A stretch of DNA of 60,637 nt from Actinomycetota bacterium. GTDB taxonomy: Bacteria; Actinomycetota; Acidimicrobiia; Spongiisociales; UBA5794. Positions 12,318-29,482 of the stretch are shown piece after piece. Position 1 is the stretch's first letter, and every line of letters starts with the position of its first letter. The stretch lies in NCBI GenBank assembly GCA_030123765.1, contig JASJXX010000005.1:1-60637 (forward strand), in the 5' to 3' direction. The notes under the pieces are model-generated. The model saw only the letters and a program-made list of their open reading frames with translations, had not been told where the DNA came from and did not search any database. A program made the translations under genes and the position numbers.

Positions 12318-13075
12318 CACACGCCTCCCTGGGTGTCATCTGTCTCTGTCTCTGATCTGTCTGTCGTCTTGCTCGGTACGTCTCTCTCCGCGGCCGCAAC
12401 TGCCTTGAACGTGTTGAGTGCTCGAGCGAGGCCCATGCGGATCTCTGGATCGCGCATCTTTCCTGCCAGTGCGAGGAGGCTCGGTGGCTTCTCCGGTTCC
12501 TGCCCGGAAGGTCTTGCTTGTGTCCGAACAGCGGTGAGTAGTCGGTCTGCCATGGCGAGAATCTCTGGCTGCGTGATGTCTTTGACGATCTCGAGCATGT
12601 GCACGACGTTGTCACCGAGCGCCTCGACATCCTCCTTCGAGAAATTCGTCACGATGCGGTCGGCTACCCCGATACCCGCGGCAGCGAACTCGAAGTAGCC
12701 CTGCTCTTCGAATTGGCCCATCCTGGTGATGGCGAGAGCAACGGCCTGGCTCAGGATCGGAGTCACCTCGCCGACGAGTTCGTTCATCGATTCGAGCTGG
12801 ATCATCATCGACTCGAGGAGTCTCGCATTGTTCGCCACCCGCACCGCGAGCAGGAGCAGGTCGGCCGGGTCGATCCGAGTTTCGTCGAGTGCGTTGGCAG
12901 AGTGCTCGATCGCGCGCGTGGCGATCGGAGTCAGGTCGGCCTGTAGCTCCTGCATCGCCTGACGACGTTGGCGTTGGGCAAGCGCTTCCTCGGTGAGGAG
13001 CACGATCTGCTCAGTGAGCCGGTCGATCTTGCGTTCCAGCTCGATGGTGCGGTCGATCGCGACGGGAGTCGTCAC
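12317..13075 (-). CDS. DUF1641-domain protein
   Basis: 252 residues, mostly helical, with a coiled-coil-like N-terminus (residues 8-45). The middle (about 70-200) matches what I know of DUF1641: repeated helical segments ending in a conserved NxVxMLExVKxxTxPE-like stretch. The function of this family is unknown, but it recurs beside sulfide:quinone oxidoreductases and formate dehydrogenase-like genes. The GTG start at 13075 overlaps the SQR stop (GTGA) and has GGAGAGGGG six bases before it. Second gene of the operon. Confidence 0.82.
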   Translation of the reverse strand: MTTPVAIDRTIELERKIDRLTEQIVLLTEEALAQRQRRQAMQELQADLTPIATRAIEHSANALDETRIDPADLLLLAVRVANNARLLESMMIQLESMNELVGEVTPILSQAVALAITRMGQFEEQGYFEFAAAGIGVADRIVTNFSKEDVEALGDNVVHMLEIVKDITQPEILAMADRLLTAVRTQARPSGQEPEKPPSLLALAGKMRDPEIRMGLARALNTFKAVAAAERDVPSKTTDRSETETDDTQGGV

Positions 13076-14307
13076 GACGCACCCCTCTCCTTGCCCGCCA
13101 TCATCATGTGGCTCGGTACCGGGATGTTCTTGCCACGCAGAAGCATGTTCCAATACATCCACTTGAACATCAGTTTGCCCCAGTGGTTGGCCTCGGTCTC
13201 CTTGAGCAGGGAGAACGGGCCGATCCCCGGGATCGGGTATTTCCCCGGCAGCGGCTCGGTCGTGTAGTTGAAGTCGATGAGCATCGCTTTGTTATACCCG
13301 GTCTCGATGTAGCAGTTCGCATGCCCATCGAACCGTTCACGCATGGGGAGGCCCTGCACGTAGTTGATGAAGTTCGGGACGAAGACGTCCATCGCAAAGT
13401 GGGCGACGGATCCGGCCTTCGACGTAGGGAGGTTGGCTGCATCCCCGAGAGCGAAGATGTTGTCGTAATCCGTCGAGAGGAACGTGTAGTGGTCAACGTT
13501 GACGTGATTCATCTCGTCACCCAGACCGGCTTCCTGGACGAAGGTCGCTCCCATGTTCACCGGCACGGTGACAAGCAGGTCGTAGTCAACCTCGCGCTCG
13601 TCGTAGGAGATGAGCTTCCGGTTCTCAGCGTCGACCCGCTCGAGATAGAAGTCAGGCACGAGTTCTATGTTGCGGTCTTCGAACATCGAACCGAGGTGCC
13701 TTGCCGCAACCGGTTTCGTGAAGGCAGCGTCCAGTGGCGTGACGTACACGATCTCGACATTGTCCCGCTTGCCATGTTCGGTGAAGTACGCCTCGGCGAG
13801 AAACGCAAACTCGAGTGGCGCAACGGGGCACTTGATCGGCATCTCGATGAGGTTGATTACGAAGCGCCCGCTCTCGAAGGTCGCCAGGGCGTCGCGGAGA
13901 GCCACGGCTCCCTCGAAGGTGTAGAAGTCGTGCACGGTCTTGCCGTACTCCGGGCTGTCAAGACCAGGAGTCTCGCTCGGCGTCGGGTGGGTGCCTGTCG
14001 CGATGACGAGATAGTCGTAGCCCAGCTCCGTGCCGTTGTCGAGGGTGACCGAGTCTGCTTCAGGATCGAGTTTGGCAATCGTTGCGGACACGTAGTTAAC
14101 ACCGCGCGGGATGAACTCTCTCTTCGTCTTTGTCACGTCGCTCGGTGCGTAGGACCCGAAGGGGATGAACAGGTACCCGGGCTGGTAGTAGTGCGTCTCG
14201 TCCTGATCGACGATGGTGATCTCCCAGTCGTCGTCGAGTTGCTCCCGCAGCTTGTTAGCTGCCATCGTGCCTGCGGTGCCGGCGCCGAGAATGATCAAGC
14301 GTTTCAC
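13072..14307 (-). CDS. sqr: Sulfide:quinone oxidoreductase-like flavoprotein
   Basis: 411 residues with two dinucleotide-binding regions: GAGTAG at 8-13 for FAD, and the IATGTHP and FALGDAANLP segments. Cys160 in PIKCPVAP and Cys332 in GHANCYIETGYNK occupy the places of the redox-active pair of SQR (as in human SQOR). The enzyme should oxidise sulfide to sulfane sulfur and pass electrons to membrane quinone. The C-terminal amphipathic stretch (FKWMYWNMLL) would touch the membrane. GTG at 14307 follows GAGGAG by six bases. First gene of a four-gene overlapping operon. Confidence 0.88.
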   Translation of the reverse strand: MKRLIILGAGTAGTMAANKLREQLDDDWEITIVDQDETHYYQPGYLFIPFGSYAPSDVTKTKREFIPRGVNYVSATIAKLDPEADSVTLDNGTELGYDYLVIATGTHPTPSETPGLDSPEYGKTVHDFYTFEGAVALRDALATFESGRFVINLIEMPIKCPVAPLEFAFLAEAYFTEHGKRDNVEIVYVTPLDAAFTKPVAARHLGSMFEDRNIELVPDFYLERVDAENRKLISYDEREVDYDLLVTVPVNMGATFVQEAGLGDEMNHVNVDHYTFLSTDYDNIFALGDAANLPTSKAGSVAHFAMDVFVPNFINYVQGLPMRERFDGHANCYIETGYNKAMLIDFNYTTEPLPGKYPIPGIGPFSLLKETEANHWGKLMFKWMYWNMLLRGKNIPVPSHMMMAGKERGAS

Positions 14308-14638
14308 GTTCCACTCCTCTGCGATGCAACGAGGCCCCGACCGGCTCGGTCGAGGCCTCTTCGTGCTGGTTTGAGTTCCGGGGAGGTACGGCAGGCAGGG
14401 GTCTGTTGCAGTGAGGTTGCGACTGAGGAGTCGCAGAGGCACCGGTTGCGCTCGACTCTCGAATTGAGCGTTGTTGTATCGTTCATCAGTCTGCCTGAGG
14501 TCAGTGTAGCGGTTTTCAAACCTATTGTATAGACGATGAGTTAGGAAATAAGCATCAGCTGTCAGTTGCCCAATGTGAAGGCGTCGGCCGTCACGCGATG
14601 ACGGGCCATTACTCTCCCGCACCCCAGTCGGAAGAGCC
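14308..14638. promoter_or_regulatory. Divergent intergenic region with structured leader of the sqr operon
   Basis: 331 nt without a gene. Nearest sqr lies a 13-bp inverted repeat (14331-14359, one mismatch, 3-nt loop), and further out a 7-bp hairpin (14418-14435). An A+T-rich patch at about 14505-14560 is the only promoter-like stretch, and could serve sqr on the minus strand, the DsbA-like gene on the plus strand, or both. I could not fix -35/-10 boxes confidently. Confidence 0.45.
14331..14359 (-). repeat. Inverted repeat in the sqr 5' leader
   Basis: Arms of 13 bases (gaggccccgaccg and cggtcgaggcctc) pair with one mismatch across the loop gct. The repeat ends 24 bases before the sqr GTG and therefore lies in the leader of the operon. 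It may be an RNA hairpin controlling translation or an operator for a regulator not in the window. Confidence 0.6.
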
Positions 14639-15226
14639 ATGCAGCGATCATTCTCCATCACCTATGACTATCTGTGCCCGTTCGCCCGCAACGCGAACGA
14701 GACTCTCGTCGAGATGCTTCAGGGTGGTGCGGCCTACTCAGTGAACTTCGTTCCGTTCTCCCTCGCGCAGACCCACACCGACGACGGGGAGATCCCACAG
14801 TGGGATCGACCGCTCGACGAGGTCGGTGGCGGCGTGCTGGCGCTGCTGTGGTCGATCGCCGTTCGGGACGGGTACCCCGAGTTCTTCCTTGCCTTCCACG
14901 CCGCCGTGTTCTCTGCCCGCCATGACGAGGGCAGCGACATAGGAGACGAGGGGGTCCTGGGCCGTGTCGCCCTCTCCGTCGGTCTGGACGCGGAGAGCAT
15001 TCGGTCTCATGTCGCGACCGGTGCGCCGGCTGGAACCCTCGCCGTTGAGCACATGGAGCTCGTCGAAGATCACGAGACGTTTGGTGTGCCGACTTTCATC
15101 GAGGGCGACGAAGCGGTCTTCGTCCGTTTCATGGAGAGGCACACACCCGATGACGTCGAGCGCGCGCTTGACATGCTGGGATGGACGAACCTCAACGAAT
15201 TCAAACGCACCACGATCCCCAGATAA
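14639..15226 (+). CDS. DsbA-family thioredoxin-fold protein
   Basis: 195 residues. The N-terminal YDYLCPFAR has a CxxA active-site remnant with a single cysteine, and FGVPTFI holds the cis-proline loop, both typical of the DsbA/FrnE/2-hydroxychromene-2-carboxylate isomerase group. The lack of a second cysteine argues against a disulfide oxidase, and suggests a glutathione-S-transferase-like or isomerase role. It has no signal peptide, so it should be cytoplasmic. A GGAAG precedes the ATG. It is divergent from the sqr operon. Confidence 0.8.
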   Translation: MQRSFSITYDYLCPFARNANETLVEMLQGGAAYSVNFVPFSLAQTHTDDGEIPQWDRPLDEVGGGVLALLWSIAVRDGYPEFFLAFHAAVFSARHDEGSDIGDEGVLGRVALSVGLDAESIRSHVATGAPAGTLAVEHMELVEDHETFGVPTFIEGDEAVFVRFMERHTPDDVERALDMLGWTNLNEFKRTTIPR

Positions 15227-15330
15227 TCCACCTGTCCCATGGGGGGGAGTAGCGGGGTGCAGCCACGGGTCCAGGTACGTGCGTCGCGTCGATTCTGACG
15301 ATCGCGGCTCCCTGTCTCTCCCCGTCCGGA

Positions 15331-16023
15331 TTGAGCCTCCTGCCTCTCTTCGGCCTGCGCCTTGCGTCTGCTCGCTGGTCGCTTTACTTTTTTGGGATCG
15401 TCCCCGGCATGTTGGGCGTCTGGCTCTTCGCCGTGTACGGGATCGCTGTTCCAGAGTTCATCAAGATGGGTCACGCCCACGCCGCGTGGTGGTCGATCCT
15501 GATCCTTCTCATGGCTCTCCTGATCCCGGGCACTCCGTTCCGCCCCAAGGTGAGGAAGTTCATCTCGTTCACCGCCATAACGGCGGTACCGGCATGGACG
15601 GTCGCGCTGGCGGCGTACTACATCAGCAAGGAAGCTCGAGGCATCGGGACACCCCTGCCGTCGCAGCCCGGCGCAGAATTCAGTCTGGAGTATGCCGTCT
15701 ACGGCACGGGGCTCTTCCTCCTCGAGGTTTGGTTCTTCGCAGTCCTCGCTCTGGTGTTTCTGGCAGACGCAAGACAGGACCGGTTCGATCCGATATCAGG
15801 GAAGAGCAGATCATTAAACTGGTTGGCACCGCAGCTCTTGCTGTTGTTGCAGGCAGACCCGATATCGATGAAGTTCCTTGCTCATAAGGAGAGCCACAGA
15901 GGCCAAGGGGAGAGAGAATGGCAATCGGCATATCACTCGCAGCAGCTACAGGAGTTATTGCAGGGGCGCTGCATACGTTCTCTGGTCCTGATCACTTGTC
16001 GGCGTTGGCTCCGGTTGCTGTAG
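15331..16023 (+). pseudogene. Membrane protein gene, apparently truncated by an insertion
   Basis: From a TTG at 15331 the frame encodes four convincing membrane helices (residues about 18-40, 50-68, 82-100, 128-148) with a GHAHAAWW motif in the second. After about base 15790 (residue 153) the translation stops looking like protein, base composition becomes visibly richer in A+T, and the frame runs on into the next gene until 16023. A better-looking tail exists in another frame (15783-15887, ending DEVPCS). I read this as the 5' part of a gene cut by the mobile insert; the candidate 3' part is at 17491-17595. The start is uncertain, since the frame is open back to 15253 and no ribosome site is clear. 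Confidence 0.5.
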
Positions 16024-16583
16024 AGCATCCTGAGAGAGCTGCAAGGACTGGAGCAGTATGGGGATTGGGTCATGGGATTGGCACGATGCTGTTGGGTCTG
16101 GTTGGGTTGTGGCTGAGGGAGTTTGTGGATATTGATTCGGTGGCTGGTTGGGCAGAGTTCATCGTTGGGTTCTTGCTGGTCGGGATCGGGGTACGGGCTA
16201 TGTGGGTGGCTCGGCGTATGAAAATTCACGAGCACGAGCACAAGCACGAGAATGGTGTAGGAACACACAGTCACGTTCACGATCACCGATCTGGGAGGTT
16301 GGGGCATAGTCATGTAGTACTCGGGTTGGGCGTTTTTCATGGAGTTGCTGGGGGCGGTTATCTGTTCGGAGTGCTTCCAGCGCTGGCGCTTCCAACGTAT
16401 CAGGCGATTATTTATCTGATGGCGTATGTGGCCGGGTCGGTTGTGGCGATGAGTGCGTTCGCTTCAGGTGTCGGGAAGCTGGCTAGAAAGTCTGTGCGCT
16501 GGATCCGGGAGTTGATGTTTCTATCTGGAGCATTGGCGACGGCAATCGGTGGTGTATGGATAGTCACGACATGGAGGTTCTGA
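15918..16583 (+). CDS. Nickel/cobalt permease-like membrane protein (NicO/UreH-like)
   Basis: 221 residues, six or so membrane helices. The first helix carries HTFSGPDH (residues 19-26), the HxxxxxDH-type metal signature of NiCoT/UreH-like permeases. A long histidine-rich loop (about 102-131, with runs such as HEHEHKHE and HSHVHDH) is typical of metal transporters. It should move Ni2+ or Co2+ across the cytoplasmic membrane. AGGGGAGAGAG precedes the ATG. Its codons are visibly richer in A/T than all neighbours, and it is followed 14 nt later by insertion-sequence remnants, suggesting acquisition by transfer. Confidence 0.8.
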   Translation: MAIGISLAAATGVIAGALHTFSGPDHLSALAPVAVEHPERAARTGAVWGLGHGIGTMLLGLVGLWLREFVDIDSVAGWAEFIVGFLLVGIGVRAMWVARRMKIHEHEHKHENGVGTHSHVHDHRSGRLGHSHVVLGLGVFHGVAGGGYLFGVLPALALPTYQAIIYLMAYVAGSVVAMSAFASGVGKLARKSVRWIRELMFLSGALATAIGGVWIVTTWRF

Positions 16584-17381
16584 ATGGCCACCCGCATTGA
16601 ACCGGTGCGGGTTTTGGTTCACGCTGGGTTTGATGGAGACTCGATGTTTTGGTTTCCAAGTGACTGTTTGATGCTCCTTTCGGCATGATAGATGTCCTCG
16701 AACTCGGCGGGCGGGATGTCCCCCGTGTAGCCGTGAACCGGTCCAGAACACTTCGTCCTCAGAGTCACCGACGTCGAGACCGAGGACTTCCCTGTTCCCG
16801 TCGCTAGCGACACCGGTTGCAATCACCACAGCACGAGACACGATGTGATGATCTACACGTGCTTTGACGTAGGTGGCATCGACATACACGTACGGGAAGG
16901 AGAGGTGATCCAACGGTCGGGTGCGGAACACCTCGACCTGCACGTCGATCTCTTCACAGATGCGGCTCACTGTCGATTTCGATACCCCGGTGTCACAGCC
17001 CAACGCCTTGACCAGATCATCAACCTTCCTCGTCGACGTACCAGTGACATACGCGGTCATGATCACCGCCCACAGGGCCTTATCCGCCCTGCGGCGAGGC
17101 TCGAGCAGGGACGGGAAGAACGACCCGGCCCGCAGCTTCGGGATCCGCAGCTCAAGATCACCCGACGGGCAAGACAACGTCTTGTCGCGATGCCCGTTGC
17201 GATAGTTCGACCGCTCATCGGTCCGTTCATGACGCGAGGCGCCGATCTTGGCAGTCACCTCGGCGTCGATCAGATCCTGGAGTGCCTGTTCCAACAACCT
17301 GCGGAACAGCTCTTTCGTGCCGTCATCACCGAAATGTGCAAGCACATCGCTAAACGTTGAGGCGTCATCATGGTGGGCCAT
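16521..17381 (-). pseudogene. IS256-family (mutator-type) transposase, C-terminally truncated
   Basis: The genuine part, from the ATG at 17381 down to about 16741, encodes the N-terminal half of an IS256 transposase: IGASRHERT, NYRNGHR, LELRIPKLR, SFFPSLLEPRRR, DDLVKALG, FPYVYVDATYVKAR (first catalytic Asp) and VGDSEDEVFW. Family members are about 400 residues; the second Asp and the catalytic Glu are missing. The remaining frame to 16521 is antisense or out-of-frame sequence of the IS3 remnant and the permease gene. An in-frame ATG at 17456 is an alternative start. Confidence 0.8.
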
Positions 17382-17490
17382 CGTGTGGTCTCTCCTGACG
17401 AGCTCGTGGATGAACTCGCTGAGAGTCACACGGTGACCCCTCAGACCGAAGGACATAACCCAATTTCCACCACTTCACGGGACACATACG
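16598..17490 (-). mobile_element. Mosaic of insertion-sequence remnants (IS3 end joined to IS256)
   Basis: On the minus strand an IS256-type transposase begins normally and is cut after about 215 residues, where the C-terminal end of an IS3-type transposase starts in another frame. The IS3 part ends near TGAACC...GGTTCA (16598-16621), which looks like an element terminus. The other border near 17450-17490 contains a sequence resembling an IS256 end (GTGTCCCGTGAAGTGG on the minus strand). No intact transposase remains, so the element should be immobile. Confidence 0.7.
16619..16735 (-). pseudogene. IS3-family transposase (OrfB), C-terminal fragment only
   Basis: About 39 codons encode HGYTGDIPPAEFED...IESPSNPA followed by TGA. 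The (D/M)xPPxEFE motif and the E-S-P-(S/T)-N-P tail are characteristic of the end of IS3-family integrase-type transposases. The catalytic DDE core is absent. It is fused out of frame to the IS256 fragment. Confidence 0.75.
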
Positions 17491-17595
17491 AAGTTCTTCA
17501 ACGTGTTCCTGCTGGCCTGGATCGGGATAGCGATGATCAGGCGGCTGAGACGTGAGGATCCGCCTGCTCCTGTCGAGGCGGACGCGACTATCTAG
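17491..17595 (+). pseudogene. 3' fragment of a membrane protein gene next to the IS256 border
   Basis: An open stretch without a start codon encodes a 34-residue tail: one membrane helix (VFLLAWIGIAMI) followed by RRLRRED and a Pro/Ala-rich end, stopping at TAG. It begins right at the presumed IS256 end and is followed by a strong hairpin. It is plausibly the missing C-terminus of the membrane protein that begins at 15331, being in the same reading frame register, but this pairing is inference. Confidence 0.45.
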
Positions 17596-17614
17596 GCACG
17601 TTTGTCCGGGCCGT

Positions 17615-17640
17615 GGGACCGGGCTTCGCGGCCCGGTCCC
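17615..17640 (+). terminator. Terminator-like hairpin after the split membrane protein
   Basis: A perfect 10-bp stem (gggaccgggc / gcccggtccc) with a ttcgcg loop, 20 nt after the TAG of the gene fragment. A short, weak pyrimidine stretch follows. It would also terminate minus-strand transcription from the M20 peptidase gene. Confidence 0.6.
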
Positions 17641-17770
17641 TCCGCGTTCCGATCCCCGGGCCTCGGTGGTGAGGCGATGCATCGACGTAGTGTGTGGCGG
17701 CCGCGAGCAACGCGATGGCACTGAAGCTGCAGGGACGCGTCCGCGTTCGAGGGTGGCCGTCGGCTCCGGA

Positions 17771-19105
17771 TCAGGACCCGAGTTCGCGAAACGCTACAGC
17801 CTGGGCTACCGCAGCCGACTCGATGTCAGCGAGTTCGACGCTCTCGTTCGGGCCGTGGTAACGGCTCGTGGGATCAGCGACACCGACGAGGAGCACCGTT
17901 GCTTGTGGGTAGCGTTCACGGAACGCGGCGACGAACGGAATCGATCCACCCATCCCCGCTTCAACGGGTTCAGCGCCATACCCCAGGCGCATGCCCTCCC
18001 TGTACGCGTCATAGACGGGGCCTGTCGTTTCGAGATCGATCGCGGAGCCGAGCGCCCCGGGGTCGACGGTGACGCTGGCGCCCCAGGGTGCCGCTGCCTT
18101 GAGGTGCTCGGTGAGGGCTGTGAGAGCTTCCTTCGGATTCTGCCCGGGCGCGATGCGCAGGGAGACTTTGGCGCTTGCGACAGGAACGATCTGGTTGATC
18201 GCTTCACTGATCGGAACCGAGTCGATCGCAAGTACCGAGATCGAAGGCCGGGTCCACAGACGCGATGTGAGCGTGCCGTGACCCATCAGTTCGAGTCCAT
18301 CGACCGGAAGGGTCTGTTGCGCAAGTTCTTCGAGGGAGAGGTCGAGCGGGTCGGCGTCACTCTCAACGAGACCCTCGATAGCGATGGAGCCGTCGTCATG
18401 GTGGAGAGAAGCGATGACACGTGCAAGCGCGATGTTCGCGTCGGGGTAAATACCGCCGAACGAGCCAGAGTGGACCGCGTACTTCAGCGTGCGCACGGTG
18501 ACCTTGCAATCTACGAGACCTCGTAGCGATGTGGTGAGCGTCGGGGTGCCGATACGCCAGTTACCCGCGTCCGCGATGATGATCACGTCGGGCTGCAGCA
18601 GCTCTTGGTACGTCGAGAGGAAGTCGACGAGGTGTCCTGAGCCGATCTCCTCCTCACCCTCAATGAAGACCTTGATGGTCACAGGGAGGTCGTTGCCAAG
18701 AGCCCTGATGGAGGCAAGGTGCAGTGCAATGCCAGCTTTGTCGTCCGCTGATCCACGGCCGTACATGCGCCCCTCGCGCACGAACGGTATGAAAGGGGAC
18801 GTCTCCCACTGGTCGGCGGGACCCGGAGGTTGCACGTCGTGATGGGCGTAGAGGAGCACCGTTGGCGCGCCCGCTGGGCCGGACTTTTCTCCGTAGACGG
18901 CAGGGTGAGCTCCGTCGATCTCAAGAAGGTGGACGTCGTCGAGGCCCGCCTCCGACATGAGTTCAGCTACGAATTCGGCGGAACGTCGTACCTCAGCTGG
19001 GGGGTATCCGGGAGCACTGACCGACGGGATGCGGACCATCCTGTCGAGTTCGTCGCGAATACGTGGCGAGTCGGCTGATACTGCGCTGCGGAGATCGTCG
19101 TGCAT
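17771..19105 (-). CDS. M20-family metallopeptidase (dipeptidase type)
   Basis: 444 residues. A cytoplasmic di-zinc peptidase of the M20 family. Metal and catalytic motifs are in order: AHHDVQP, GRGSADDKAG with the bridging Asp, and EGEEEIGS with the general-base Glu, then a dimerisation domain and a C-terminal HGPNES. The long form with GYPP near residue 33 resembles carnosinase/CPG2-like dipeptidases. The substrate is not evident from context. Confidence 0.9.
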   Translation of the reverse strand: MHDDLRSAVSADSPRIRDELDRMVRIPSVSAPGYPPAEVRRSAEFVAELMSEAGLDDVHLLEIDGAHPAVYGEKSGPAGAPTVLLYAHHDVQPPGPADQWETSPFIPFVREGRMYGRGSADDKAGIALHLASIRALGNDLPVTIKVFIEGEEEIGSGHLVDFLSTYQELLQPDVIIIADAGNWRIGTPTLTTSLRGLVDCKVTVRTLKYAVHSGSFGGIYPDANIALARVIASLHHDDGSIAIEGLVESDADPLDLSLEELAQQTLPVDGLELMGHGTLTSRLWTRPSISVLAIDSVPISEAINQIVPVASAKVSLRIAPGQNPKEALTALTEHLKAAAPWGASVTVDPGALGSAIDLETTGPVYDAYREGMRLGYGAEPVEAGMGGSIPFVAAFRERYPQATVLLVGVADPTSRYHGPNESVELADIESAAVAQAVAFRELGS

Positions 19106-19648: not shown

Positions 19649-20635
19649 TCACCGGGAGCGCCTTGCAAGGGTGAGGGCGAACCGATCCTCGCTGTCGTTC
19701 CACCAGTTCGTCGTCACAAGCCCCGCTGCAGCGAGTTCTTCATCGACCTGGTCCCGCGTGAACTTGCATGACCACTCGGTGTGAATGGATTCGCCGACGA
19801 CGAGAGAGAAGTCGAGATCGATCGCGTCGAGGCGTGCCCTCACATCGCGGTTTGCGCGGAGGCTCTGCTCCATACAGCCGGTCTCGGCGTTGAGCTTAGT
19901 TTCATGGTCGAAGGCGTCGAGGTCGATGTCGCCGTCGAGTTCACGGTTGATGACGGTGAGAATGTTCTTGTTGAAGGCGGCGGAGACTCCCTCGGAGTCG
20001 TCATAGGCAGCGAGGAGGGTCTCCTCATCCTTGATGAGGTCGATGCCGAGAAGGAAGCCGTCTTCATCGCCGAGCATGGATGCCACGGCCCGAAAGAATC
20101 CCGGGCGTTGCTCCCGCGGCAGGTTCCCGACGGTCGAGCCGAGAAATGCCACGAGTCGCCGGCCATGTCTAGGTACCGCTCCAAGGTCAGATCCGAAGTC
20201 ACCGAGGTAGCCCTCGACTCGTAGCCACGGGTAGCTCTCCGTGAGAAGCGCACCAGCGTGTCGGAGAGACGCTTCGGAGACGTCTATGGCGACATAGAGG
20301 CTGCCCGCCTCTTGTTCATGGATGGCGGTGAGCAGCAGGCGAGTCTTGCGGGCGTAGCCAGCACCGATCTCCACGAGTTCGTCCGGATGGATCGCGGCGA
20401 TGATGTCGTACGCGTAGGTCTCGAGAATCTCGGTCTCGGCCCGCGCGAGATAGTACTCGGGGAGCCGCGTGATCTCCTCGAAGAGCGCCGAGCCGTAGTC
20501 GTCATAGAAGTAGATCGAAGGCAGACTCTTGTGCCGGGCGGTGAGCCCGGTGCGCACATCCTTGATCATCTGTTCCCGAACGCTGTGGGGATTCCCGATC
20601 CGGGTCAGTGTGAACCGCGGCGCGTTCCCGGTCAT
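19649..20635 (-). CDS. egtD: L-histidine N-alpha-methyltransferase EgtD
   Basis: 328 residues. Trimethylates histidine to hercynine with S-adenosylmethionine, the first step of ergothioneine synthesis. Family features are IYFYDDYGSALFEEITRLPEYY, ELGAG-type ELVEIGAGYARKT, and FLGSTVGN, with the C-terminal TEWSCKFT. The ATG at 20635 overlaps the egtB stop by 4 nt (ATGA), so the two are coupled. An alternative GTG-like upstream start (20647) lies inside egtB. Confidence 0.93.
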   Translation of the reverse strand: MTGNAPRFTLTRIGNPHSVREQMIKDVRTGLTARHKSLPSIYFYDDYGSALFEEITRLPEYYLARAETEILETYAYDIIAAIHPDELVEIGAGYARKTRLLLTAIHEQEAGSLYVAIDVSEASLRHAGALLTESYPWLRVEGYLGDFGSDLGAVPRHGRRLVAFLGSTVGNLPREQRPGFFRAVASMLGDEDGFLLGIDLIKDEETLLAAYDDSEGVSAAFNKNILTVINRELDGDIDLDAFDHETKLNAETGCMEQSLRANRDVRARLDAIDLDFSLVVGESIHTEWSCKFTRDQVDEELAAAGLVTTNWWNDSEDRFALTLARRSR

Positions 20636-21957
20636 GCAGCGTCCCACGCCAGGCGGACGCCCGCGAAGATCTGTCTGCGCTTGCGGTAGTCCCAGTTACG
20701 GAACGTAGCACGGGCAACGGCGGGCGCCGTTGCCCAGGACGCCCCACGCAGCACGCGGAACTCCTCGTCCCCGAAGAACACTTCGGAGTACTCGGGGTAA
20801 GGGAACGTCGAATATCCCGGGTAGGGAAGGAACCGCGATGTGGTCCACTCGTAGGTGTCGCCCAGGAGCTGCTCAACCCCACAGGCTGACGCGCCCAGGG
20901 GGTATGACCCGACTGGAGCAGGACCCCAACCGTGCTGTCCGAGGTTTGCATGCGCGCTCGTCGGAGGCGCGCTCCCCCACGGAAACTTCCGCGGACCGCG
21001 CCCTGCGGGGTCGAATCTCGCGGCTCTCTCCCATTCGGCTTCGGTAGGGAGCCGCCCTCCCTCGAAGCGAGCGAAGGCTTCTGCTTCCCAGAAACTGATG
21101 TGGATCACAGGTTCGGCCGGGTCGAGTGTGCGCAGTGCGCCGAACATCAGTTGAGTCCATCCCCCGAGCGCGTCACGATGCCATCCCTGGGGAGCGTCGT
21201 AGTCGACGCCCGTCCTCCAGAGCCATCCTGCGGTACTCCAGAACTCCCGGCGCGCGTAGCCGCCTGCCTCGACAAACCTGACGTATCTGCGGTTGGTCAC
21301 GGGAAATCTGTCGATCCTGAACGTGTCGACGTGCACTTGATGGGCCGGGCGCTCATTGTCATACGTCGCCGCTCGGTCGTCCGTCCCCATCGTGAACTCC
21401 CCACCCTCGACGTGCGACCGTTCGGTGTCGTCCACAGGCCGAGCGAGAGGGCGGTGTCGGGCCACTGCTAATGCGTAGGGAGCGAGATCGGAACGCAGGT
21501 TGAGGGCCTGCAAGATCGTCTCCTGATGCTGCGCCTCGTGTTGGATCGTCATCTCGAAGACGAAGCCGCCCCTTGCGAGTTCGGGGCCATCGACGATGTC
21601 GGTTCTCCTGAGCAGCGCGTCGACGTCGTGTCGCACCTCGTTCAGGTACTCGGTCGCCTCTTCACGGTCCAGAAGCGGTAGATCTCCCCTTACCCAGCGT
21701 GGGTTGTCGAATGGGTTGTACATGGCGTCACGGGCAGCGTCATGCGCCCGACGCCCGCCAAGCTCGCGCAGTAGCCAGAACTCTTCGAAGTTAGCGATGT
21801 GCCCCATGTCCCACACGAGCGGTCCCATGATCGAATCGAACTGGCCGTGAACGTCGTCATCTGAGAGCGTCGAGGTGAGCGAGAGAGTGCGATCACGCAT
21901 CGTGTGCATGCCGGAGCGGAGCGTGTGTTTCGGGTCTCCCCGAAGGCGAAGTGACAT
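20632..21957 (-). CDS. egtB: Ergothioneine sulfoxide synthase EgtB
   Basis: 441 residues. A non-haem iron enzyme that joins hercynine to a thiol (gamma-glutamylcysteine or cysteine) with oxygen. The N-terminal DinB-like domain provides His53 in MGHIANFEE and His140 and His144 in HEAQHQ as iron ligands. The C-terminal formylglycine-generating-enzyme-like domain has GGEFTMG, PVTNRRY, RLPTEAEWE and FRVLRGGSW-like FRVLRGASW. No egtA, egtC or egtE is within the window. Confidence 0.93.
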   Translation of the reverse strand: MSLRLRGDPKHTLRSGMHTMRDRTLSLTSTLSDDDVHGQFDSIMGPLVWDMGHIANFEEFWLLRELGGRRAHDAARDAMYNPFDNPRWVRGDLPLLDREEATEYLNEVRHDVDALLRRTDIVDGPELARGGFVFEMTIQHEAQHQETILQALNLRSDLAPYALAVARHRPLARPVDDTERSHVEGGEFTMGTDDRAATYDNERPAHQVHVDTFRIDRFPVTNRRYVRFVEAGGYARREFWSTAGWLWRTGVDYDAPQGWHRDALGGWTQLMFGALRTLDPAEPVIHISFWEAEAFARFEGGRLPTEAEWERAARFDPAGRGPRKFPWGSAPPTSAHANLGQHGWGPAPVGSYPLGASACGVEQLLGDTYEWTTSRFLPYPGYSTFPYPEYSEVFFGDEEFRVLRGASWATAPAVARATFRNWDYRKRRQIFAGVRLAWDAA

Positions 21958-27980: not shown

Positions 27981-28893
27981 CGGCGTCTGCTCTCAGGTTC
28001 TGATGCTTGTTGCGTGATGCCCGACGCTGGTCATAGCCGAAGATCGCCAGTGCGACCCACACGGTGACGAATGCGAACGATTCGATGCTTGTCATCGACT
28101 CCCCGAACACTGCCACGCCGATCATCAGCTGAAGCGTTGGCGCGATGTACTGCAAGAAGCCGACCACCGAGAGCGGGATACGTTTCGCAGCTGCTCCGAA
28201 GAGGAGTAGCGGGATCACCGTGACGAGCCCCGCAGTGAGCAAGAACAGGGTTATCGCTGGCGTAGACCCGAACGTCGCGCCTGTCATCCGTGTCAGGAAC
28301 AGCAGCGCTGCCACGGCGGGCACGAACATCACGAGTGTCTCGCCGAACAAGGACACGAGAGGCGCGGGCGTTACGTCCTGTTTCTTGAGGAGGCCGTAGA
28401 AGCCGAACGAGAAGGCGAGCGTGAGCGAGATCCATGGGGGGACTCCTGCGAGGACACCCATCGCGATGACTCCGAAGGCTGCGACTCCCACTGCGGTCCA
28501 CTGCAGTGGGCGGAGCTTCTCGTTGAGGACGAACACTCCGAGAGCCACCGACACGAGCGGGTTGATGAAGTAGCCGAGGGAGACCTCGATGATGTGCCCG
28601 TTCGTCACAGCCCACACGAATACGCTCCAGTTGAGCGCAAGCAGAGACGCCGCCGTAAGGGTGGCGAGTCTCGGCCTCCACGCGGAGTAGCCGCTCGCGA
28701 ACACCGGCCACTCGCGACGCAGCGTGATGACGATGGCCAGGATCGGCACCGACCAGATGATCCTGTGCAGCAGCATCACAGCGGCGTCGATCGCCACGAG
28801 ATTCCAGAACAATGGCGTGAGACCCCAGAACAGGTACGCAGCGACTCCGAACCAGACCCCTTGTCGATGCTGCAATCTGTCTCCCACTGTCAC
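27970..28893 (-). CDS. rarD: EamA-family transporter, RarD type
   Basis: 307 residues with about ten membrane helices in two EamA halves. The RarD-type features GVWFGVAAYLFWGLTPLFW, HRIIWS, NWSVFVWAVTNGHIIEVSLGYFINPL and SLSYFGFYGLLKK-like region are present. Drug/metabolite exporter superfamily; substrate unknown. It starts at GTG 28893. Confidence 0.9.
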   Translation of the reverse strand: MTVGDRLQHRQGVWFGVAAYLFWGLTPLFWNLVAIDAAVMLLHRIIWSVPILAIVITLRREWPVFASGYSAWRPRLATLTAASLLALNWSVFVWAVTNGHIIEVSLGYFINPLVSVALGVFVLNEKLRPLQWTAVGVAAFGVIAMGVLAGVPPWISLTLAFSFGFYGLLKKQDVTPAPLVSLFGETLVMFVPAVAALLFLTRMTGATFGSTPAITLFLLTAGLVTVIPLLLFGAAAKRIPLSVVGFLQYIAPTLQLMIGVAVFGESMTSIESFAFVTVWVALAIFGYDQRRASRNKHQNLRADAATP

Positions 28894-29002
28894 GGCAGAC
28901 CAGTCTGGCAGCTTTCGGGTGCACGGATGTACGAGCGTCAGGATCTGTCATTCGGCGCCCGACACCAGCATTTATGTCACCGGGTCCCGATACGGTGCAT
29001 AC

Positions 29003-29482
29003 ATGTTCACCGCACTCGCTCCTCGCCCGATCGCTGAAGGCCCGAGGCGTCGCCACGATGCAAGGGTAAACCGGTTCTCCCTCGAGGCCGTGCTTCTCAC
29101 GGAGCTCGACGGCCTCGCTGTCGATGACCATCAGGCCCGGTACGTCGTTGAGGCGGTGTGTGGAGGCTTCTCAGTGGAGGTTCCAAGGATGCGGTTCCAC
29201 GCGAGGCGCTCCCCGTACACGGGTGCCACGGAGCAGCCCAGGTGGCTGCTCGTGGAGCTACACGGCATCGAAGATGTCAGACGCATCGAGGAGCGTCGCG
29301 GTAGCTCTCTTCCACTCAAGGGCGCGATTCGTCTGGGCAGGGTGACGACGCTCATGACGGTGGCCCACGAGCTCGGGCATCATCTCGTGTTCTGCCTTGA
29401 TCGGCCGCGGACACCCGGCCACGGGAAGCGGTGGGTGCAGCGATTCGATGAGGCGGCGAGAGCTATCCGGCGGATTCTGTAG
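29003..29482 (+). CDS. SprT-like zinc metallopeptidase
   Basis: 159 residues. HELGHH in VAHELGHHLV gives the HExxH zinc site, and PGHGKRW about 16 residues later supplies the third ligand in the place used by SprT-like proteins (HGxxW). Such proteins are linked to DNA-protein crosslink repair or are uncharacterised. The zinc ribbon often found at the C-terminus of SprT is absent. The ATG at 29003 is the first good start; no ribosome site is obvious. Confidence 0.65.
   Translation: MFTALAPRPIAEGPRRRHDARVNRFSLEAVLLTELDGLAVDDHQARYVVEAVCGGFSVEVPRMRFHARRSPYTGATEQPRWLLVELHGIEDVRRIEERRGSSLPLKGAIRLGRVTTLMTVAHELGHHLVFCLDRPRTPGHGKRWVQRFDEAARAIRRIL

Follow-up and report, generated by a model that had tools for sequence, protein, structure and literature searches.

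UreH proteins consist of six helices, with a histidine-rich loop between helices 3 and 4 (PMC4284471), and members of the family are predicted to serve urease, hydrogenase, nickel superoxide dismutase (Ni-SOD) or B12 synthesis (PMC2667541). Adjacency to a nickel-enzyme gene has been used to predict the substrate, rather than to define the family (PMC4284471, PMC2667541). A described member that invites comparison is SodT of marine picocyanobacteria (PMC4284471, PMC2667541): it shares six helices and a histidine-rich cytoplasmic TM3–TM4 loop with a permease encoded at 15918–16583 (plus strand) of the 60,637-nt stretch of actinomycetotal DNA analysed here (hereafter, the window). Unlike SodT, which serves Ni-SOD, the window permease has neither sodN nor sodX nearby. 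The NicO/RcnA nickel–cobalt transporters also have a histidine-rich loop in common with it, and there is weak profile similarity to them; however, the match to the corresponding NCBIfam model (PRK10019), at 23.4 bits (E = 3e-5), falls short of the cut-off of 195.

On the evidence of its GC3, its homologues and its AlphaFold model, the window permease is an intact, 221-residue protein of the UreH/SodT type (NicO superfamily). Hydropathy gives six hydrophobic segments, corresponding to six TM helices, and the AlphaFold model is helical (pLDDT 85.7). The histidine-rich loop between TM3 and TM4 comprises residues 93–133 (HEHEHKHENGVGTHSHVHDH), and its histidines are conserved in 14–15 homologues. 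Identities to homologues are 53–61% in Acidimicrobiia-type genomes and 37–44% in Synechococcus, where the proteins are SodT-like. The copy in Synechococcus UW140 (43%, E = 4e-39) adjoins a signal-peptidase-like (sodX-like) gene and the gene for a SodN with the HCDGPCGVY hook; judged by sequence, this arrangement is sodT–sodX–sodN. The Pfam model DsbD_2 scores 21.1 bits on the window permease, under its cut-off of 24.9, and the permease model has no significant neighbour in the PDB, the nearest plausible one being CcdA (TM 0.47, E = 1.4). From its family, the protein is expected to move nickel, and possibly cobalt, across the inner membrane, with the cytoplasmic histidine loop predicted to bind the metal. 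Directly 3' of the gene is an intrinsic-terminator-like hairpin (16590–16612, plus strand); such sites are no commoner than chance in this region.

The permease lies within a foreign block (15790–17489) that is delimited by two real composition borders, near 15790 and 17490. Under a codon model derived from 37 ORFs of the window, the permease has a score of −0.03, and its GC3 is 0.54, whereas the window's host genes average 0.74. Across 15750–16800, GC drops from ~0.62 to 0.54–0.56, and the GC skew is strong (up to 0.42). At the left border, host-like codon use in the frame that opens at 15331 ends sharply at 15789 (change point): the cumulative codon score is highest at the codon that begins at 15787 and decreases beyond it. 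There is no stop at 15790, the frame remaining open until 16023; it is the codon signal alone that ends. The changes in codon use and GC mark out 15790–15917 (plus strand) as a putative foreign leader of the permease. Within it, the frame 15792–15887 encodes DIREEQIIKLVGTAALAVVAGRPDIDEVPCS followed by a stop; the peptide (15792–15884) resembles the end of a real protein, and searches with it matched nothing. The frame could derive from the 3' terminus of a donor gene. No IS end is present at the left border (15790). Elsewhere in the window, a 366-residue ORF at 28034–29131 (minus strand) has a GC3 of 0.49 and no Pfam match, and is either foreign or not a gene.

Behind the permease, the minus-strand ORF 16521–17456 is a fusion between the N-terminal part of an IS256 transposase and the end of an IS3 element. 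The IS3-family remnant (16618–16741, minus strand) retains the last ~40 transposase codons and the right end; by tblastn, it is 51% identical (1e-4) to IS3 transposases of Arthrobacter and Rhodococcus plasmids, and its codons lie in a different frame from those of the adjoining IS256 part. It has both the C-terminal transposase peptide and the end of the IS3 elements of Actinomycetota plasmids, the latter (GAGTCTCCATCAAACCCAG) being common to one plasmid element and nearly so to a second, but only the last ~120 bases are left. The IS256 (IS1245-like) remnant (16740–17489, minus strand) was delimited through a profile, blastn and a relic: Transposase_mut matches at 1.6e-67 over positions 20–212 of 379, similarity to IS1245-like DNA in blastn ceases at 16740, and the end at 17489 is confirmed by a second, 59-base relic in this genome (G000:C125:319-376), the match to which stops there. 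Compared with IS1245-like elements of the IS256 family, the remnant keeps the 5' end and the N-terminal part of the transposase, whereas the C-terminal part and the other end are lost; with a partial transposase and one end, it is not an intact IS256 transposon but a dead one. Because both IS elements are truncated and fused, and no IS end occurs at 15790, the block does not constitute an intact mobile unit. The relic (L008) is itself a solitary end of the IS256 type, located next to where a PEP carboxylase-like gene begins, with no transposase nearby. The original prediction had described a membrane protein encoded from 15331 that loses coding sense near 15790, and an A+T-richer insert bearing a NicO/UreH-like permease with a histidine-rich loop, followed by IS3 and IS256 remnants. 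In outline, this is borne out, the membrane protein by four hydrophobic segments and gene-like codon scores, and the remnants both being on the minus strand.

The window, contig C126 of a 2.2 Mb genome, was compared with a set of named relatives that are mostly Actinomycetota/Acidimicrobiia metagenome bins. The foreign block sits in a 2.5 kb gap between two conserved neighbours: to the left, a DsbA-like thioredoxin-fold protein (14639–15226, plus strand; Pfam DSBA, 1.7e-11), with orthologues at 52–63% identity in 13 relatives; to the right, an M20 family peptidase (17771–19105, minus strand; NCBIfam PRK07907, 1e-167), with orthologues at 78–79% identity within the genus. From left to right, the gap holds a membrane ORF, the permease, the IS3 remnant, the IS256 remnant and a short open frame that ends at 17595. 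There is no phage match for this interval, and no Rfam RNA in the window. Beyond the DsbA-like gene, 13072–14661 (minus strand) encodes a type III sulfide:quinone reductase (SQR), which among NCBIfam models scores best against that of the selenoprotein subtype (2.4e-189); the ORF has no in-frame stop and, therefore, reads as the form without selenocysteine. Beyond the M20 gene, 19649–21957 (minus strand) contains two adjacent genes resembling those of ergothioneine synthesis, namely, an EgtB-like FGE-sulfatase/DinB_2 protein and a probable EgtD-like methyltransferase.

The relatives fill the interval differently (synteny of L044–L050), the majority having a TrmH/SpoU methyltransferase, a conserved secreted protein or both. 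A TrmH/SpoU methyltransferase and a conserved secreted protein are encoded around the DsbA and M20 genes in G002 (of the same genus), G007, G016 and G024, and a single contig of G002 carries the M20 3' end followed by the secreted-protein, TrmH, DsbA and SQR genes. The interval of G011 holds the secreted protein alone, whereas in G006 and G008, according to distances taken from ortholog positions, DsbA adjoins M20 with nothing between; the secreted protein also adjoins M20 in G001, G003 and G004. In the window's own genome, which is 98.6% complete, there is no match to the secreted protein and no TrmH/SpoU orthologue, the partial SpoU-family matches (28–42%) being distant paralogues. Since the TrmH and secreted-protein genes of the relatives are missing here, the whole interval would have been replaced, with the membrane ORF itself a newcomer; on this comparison of gene order, 15227–17770 is in its entirety a lineage-specific replacement, and within it the permease block stands out as the most foreign layer. 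The secreted protein (~325 residues, with an MRRST-like start; L049, L050 and L053) is a constant neighbour of M20 in the genus that is missing only here; that of G002 has no Pfam match.

Turning to the origin of the permease, one copy is found in each of G001 and G003, and a partial one in G002, and the closest match of the window permease (61%) is indeed that of a congener. These observations would suit a permease that is the genus's own vertical copy, relocated by IS activity and evolving fast, rather than a foreign one. However, the M20 proteins of the window, G001 and G003 are equally distant from one another (78–79%), whereas the permeases of G001 and G003 are 77% identical to each other and that of the window is only 59–61% identical to either, such that its divergence goes far beyond that of M20. 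Moreover, the GC3 of the window copy contrasts with values of 0.66–0.73 in the congeners, and the congener copies have other neighbours, their site adjoining an acyl-CoA synthetase gene. Vertical descent appears improbable to us; the low identity to the congener copies despite the parity of M20, the lower GC3 and the different neighbours make horizontal gain of the permease the best reading. In the permease tree, the window copy is placed without support, on a long branch that might equally reflect rapid evolution by vertical descent.

The two host-like frames that flank the block are less readily interpreted. The membrane ORF (15331–15789, plus strand; 153 codons with a TTG start) has four predicted TM helices by hydropathy, and its codon score (0.219 per codon) and GC3 (0.78) are like those of the window's other genes, albeit the score alone is within chance, being matched by 7% of long off-frame stretches. 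It has no ATG start and no clear ribosome site, and no homologue was detectable in ~1,100 searched genomes. The searches covered its own genome, 60 relatives, and 396 genomes of the phylum, 395 of the class and 138 of the order, along with GTDB contigs, viral contigs, plasmids, PDB, Pfam, NCBIfam and PHROGs. Weak matches (E = 2e-4 to 0.01, 17–22 bits) were at chance level, being short and in some cases having internal stops. A single-sequence AlphaFold model was poor (pLDDT 62), rendering a fold search meaningless, and a likeness to four-helix isomerases (styrene-oxide isomerase, hydroxylaminobenzene mutase) was considered and dropped. On the far side of the block, 17491–17595 (plus strand) is a 34-codon open frame that, by codon score and hydropathy, is host-like and encodes one hydrophobic helix with a basic tail. 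The score of 17491–17592 is 0.249; among off-frame stretches of this length, 1.6% of the stop-ended ones and 5% of all stop-free ones reach it. The score lends weak support to this frame being coding, which is likely; the frame is possibly the 3' end of a gene. No homologue of it was found in the searched collections. Between the convergent tail frame and M20 gene is a strong GC hairpin (17604–17650), identified as an inverted repeat and by RNA folding (−33.9 kcal/mol for 17593–17660), which is a possible transcription end for either strand. The helix, the basic tail, the stop (TAG at 17593–17595) and the GC hairpin after it agree with what had been proposed for this border; the supposed lack of a start does not, as GTG 17503 could serve, although it is the only candidate and has no clear ribosome site.

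The original prediction took the locus to be a mobile insertion into one gene. A foreign block that carries a metal permease does lie between host-like flanks, with an IS256 end exactly at its right border, and it is the interruption of one gene that is in question. Were 15331–15789 and 17491–17595 the halves of a single membrane gene, this would account for the host-like codon scores on both flanks, for a tail that lacks a good start and whose terminal stop precedes a hairpin, and for the IS256 end falling exactly at that tail. IS256 elements give rise to target-site duplications of 8–9 bp, and a 9-bp near-duplication in one frame (8/9 bases; GAAGTTCTT at 17490 and GAAGTTCCT at 15870) has the right length. 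Its chance probability, however, is between 1.3% (strict) and 11% (lenient), and the 15870 copy sits in a poorly coding stretch, such that the gene would need to include 15790–15878, a stretch with a negative codon score (−0.14). No target-site duplication could be called secure. In addition to neither half having a homologue in the searched collections, the comparison of related genomes yielded no uninterrupted gene: every relative holding both neighbours has TrmH and/or another gene there, or nothing, and never the membrane gene. The topology is also unfavourable: according to hydropathy and charge (positive-inside rule), the four helices of the membrane ORF place both of its ends inside, and the C-terminal side of the tail helix prefers the inside too, so that a simple joining would give the wrong topology. 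Furthermore, the replacement of the interval makes a single insertion into one gene a less convincing account, and we regard a split gene as doubtful.

Alternatively, the membrane ORF could be an orphan gene of its own, complete or decayed, and the tail a leftover of a different gene or not genic at all, the block having landed between genes. Four helices with both the N- and C-termini inside would befit a complete small membrane protein, the signal in the tail is short and within the reach of chance, and the interval is prone to gene turnover. On the other hand, neither an ATG start nor a clear ribosome site is present for the membrane ORF, whose host-like part lacks a stop of its own near 15790. 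We give this view somewhat less than even odds.

Overall, we conclude, with a probability of about 0.68, that the interval between the DsbA-like and M20 genes is a turnover site: the TrmH/SpoU and secreted-protein genes of the relatives are, by comparison, missing from this lineage, and the site would now hold a host-like orphan membrane ORF, the foreign permease/IS block and a short host-like frame. The UreH/SodT-type permease would have been acquired horizontally together with its own leader and terminator; IS3 and IS256 elements would then have landed behind it and, as their anatomy suggests, been truncated and fused by deletion. This succession, from permease through IS3 and IS256 to deletion, is a reading of one genome.

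There is no nickel-enzyme gene at the permease locus. Ni-SOD (PF09055) is absent from the window's own genome and from its four congeners (G000–G004), three of these five genomes being <85% complete, and is present in 34 of the 36 other relatives. Of the five genomes in the set of relatives that carry the permease, four come from this Ni-SOD-free genus, a pattern that is confounded by shared descent. It is conceivable, if rather unlikely, that a SodT-type permease functions in a genus from which Ni-SOD has been lost, serving another nickel or cobalt need, or export, and that in this species a foreign copy, arriving with IS elements at the turnover site, took the place of an old one.

The permease and the IS pieces belong to known kinds, and the locus is an ordinary trace of gene exchange that changes no general view. 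It does provide a clean, small example of a metal permease, accompanied by IS debris, entering a genome at a site of shifting gene content. Additionally, a genus in which a SodT-like permease occurs apart from Ni-SOD could be of use in testing roles of UreH proteins beyond Ni-SOD.
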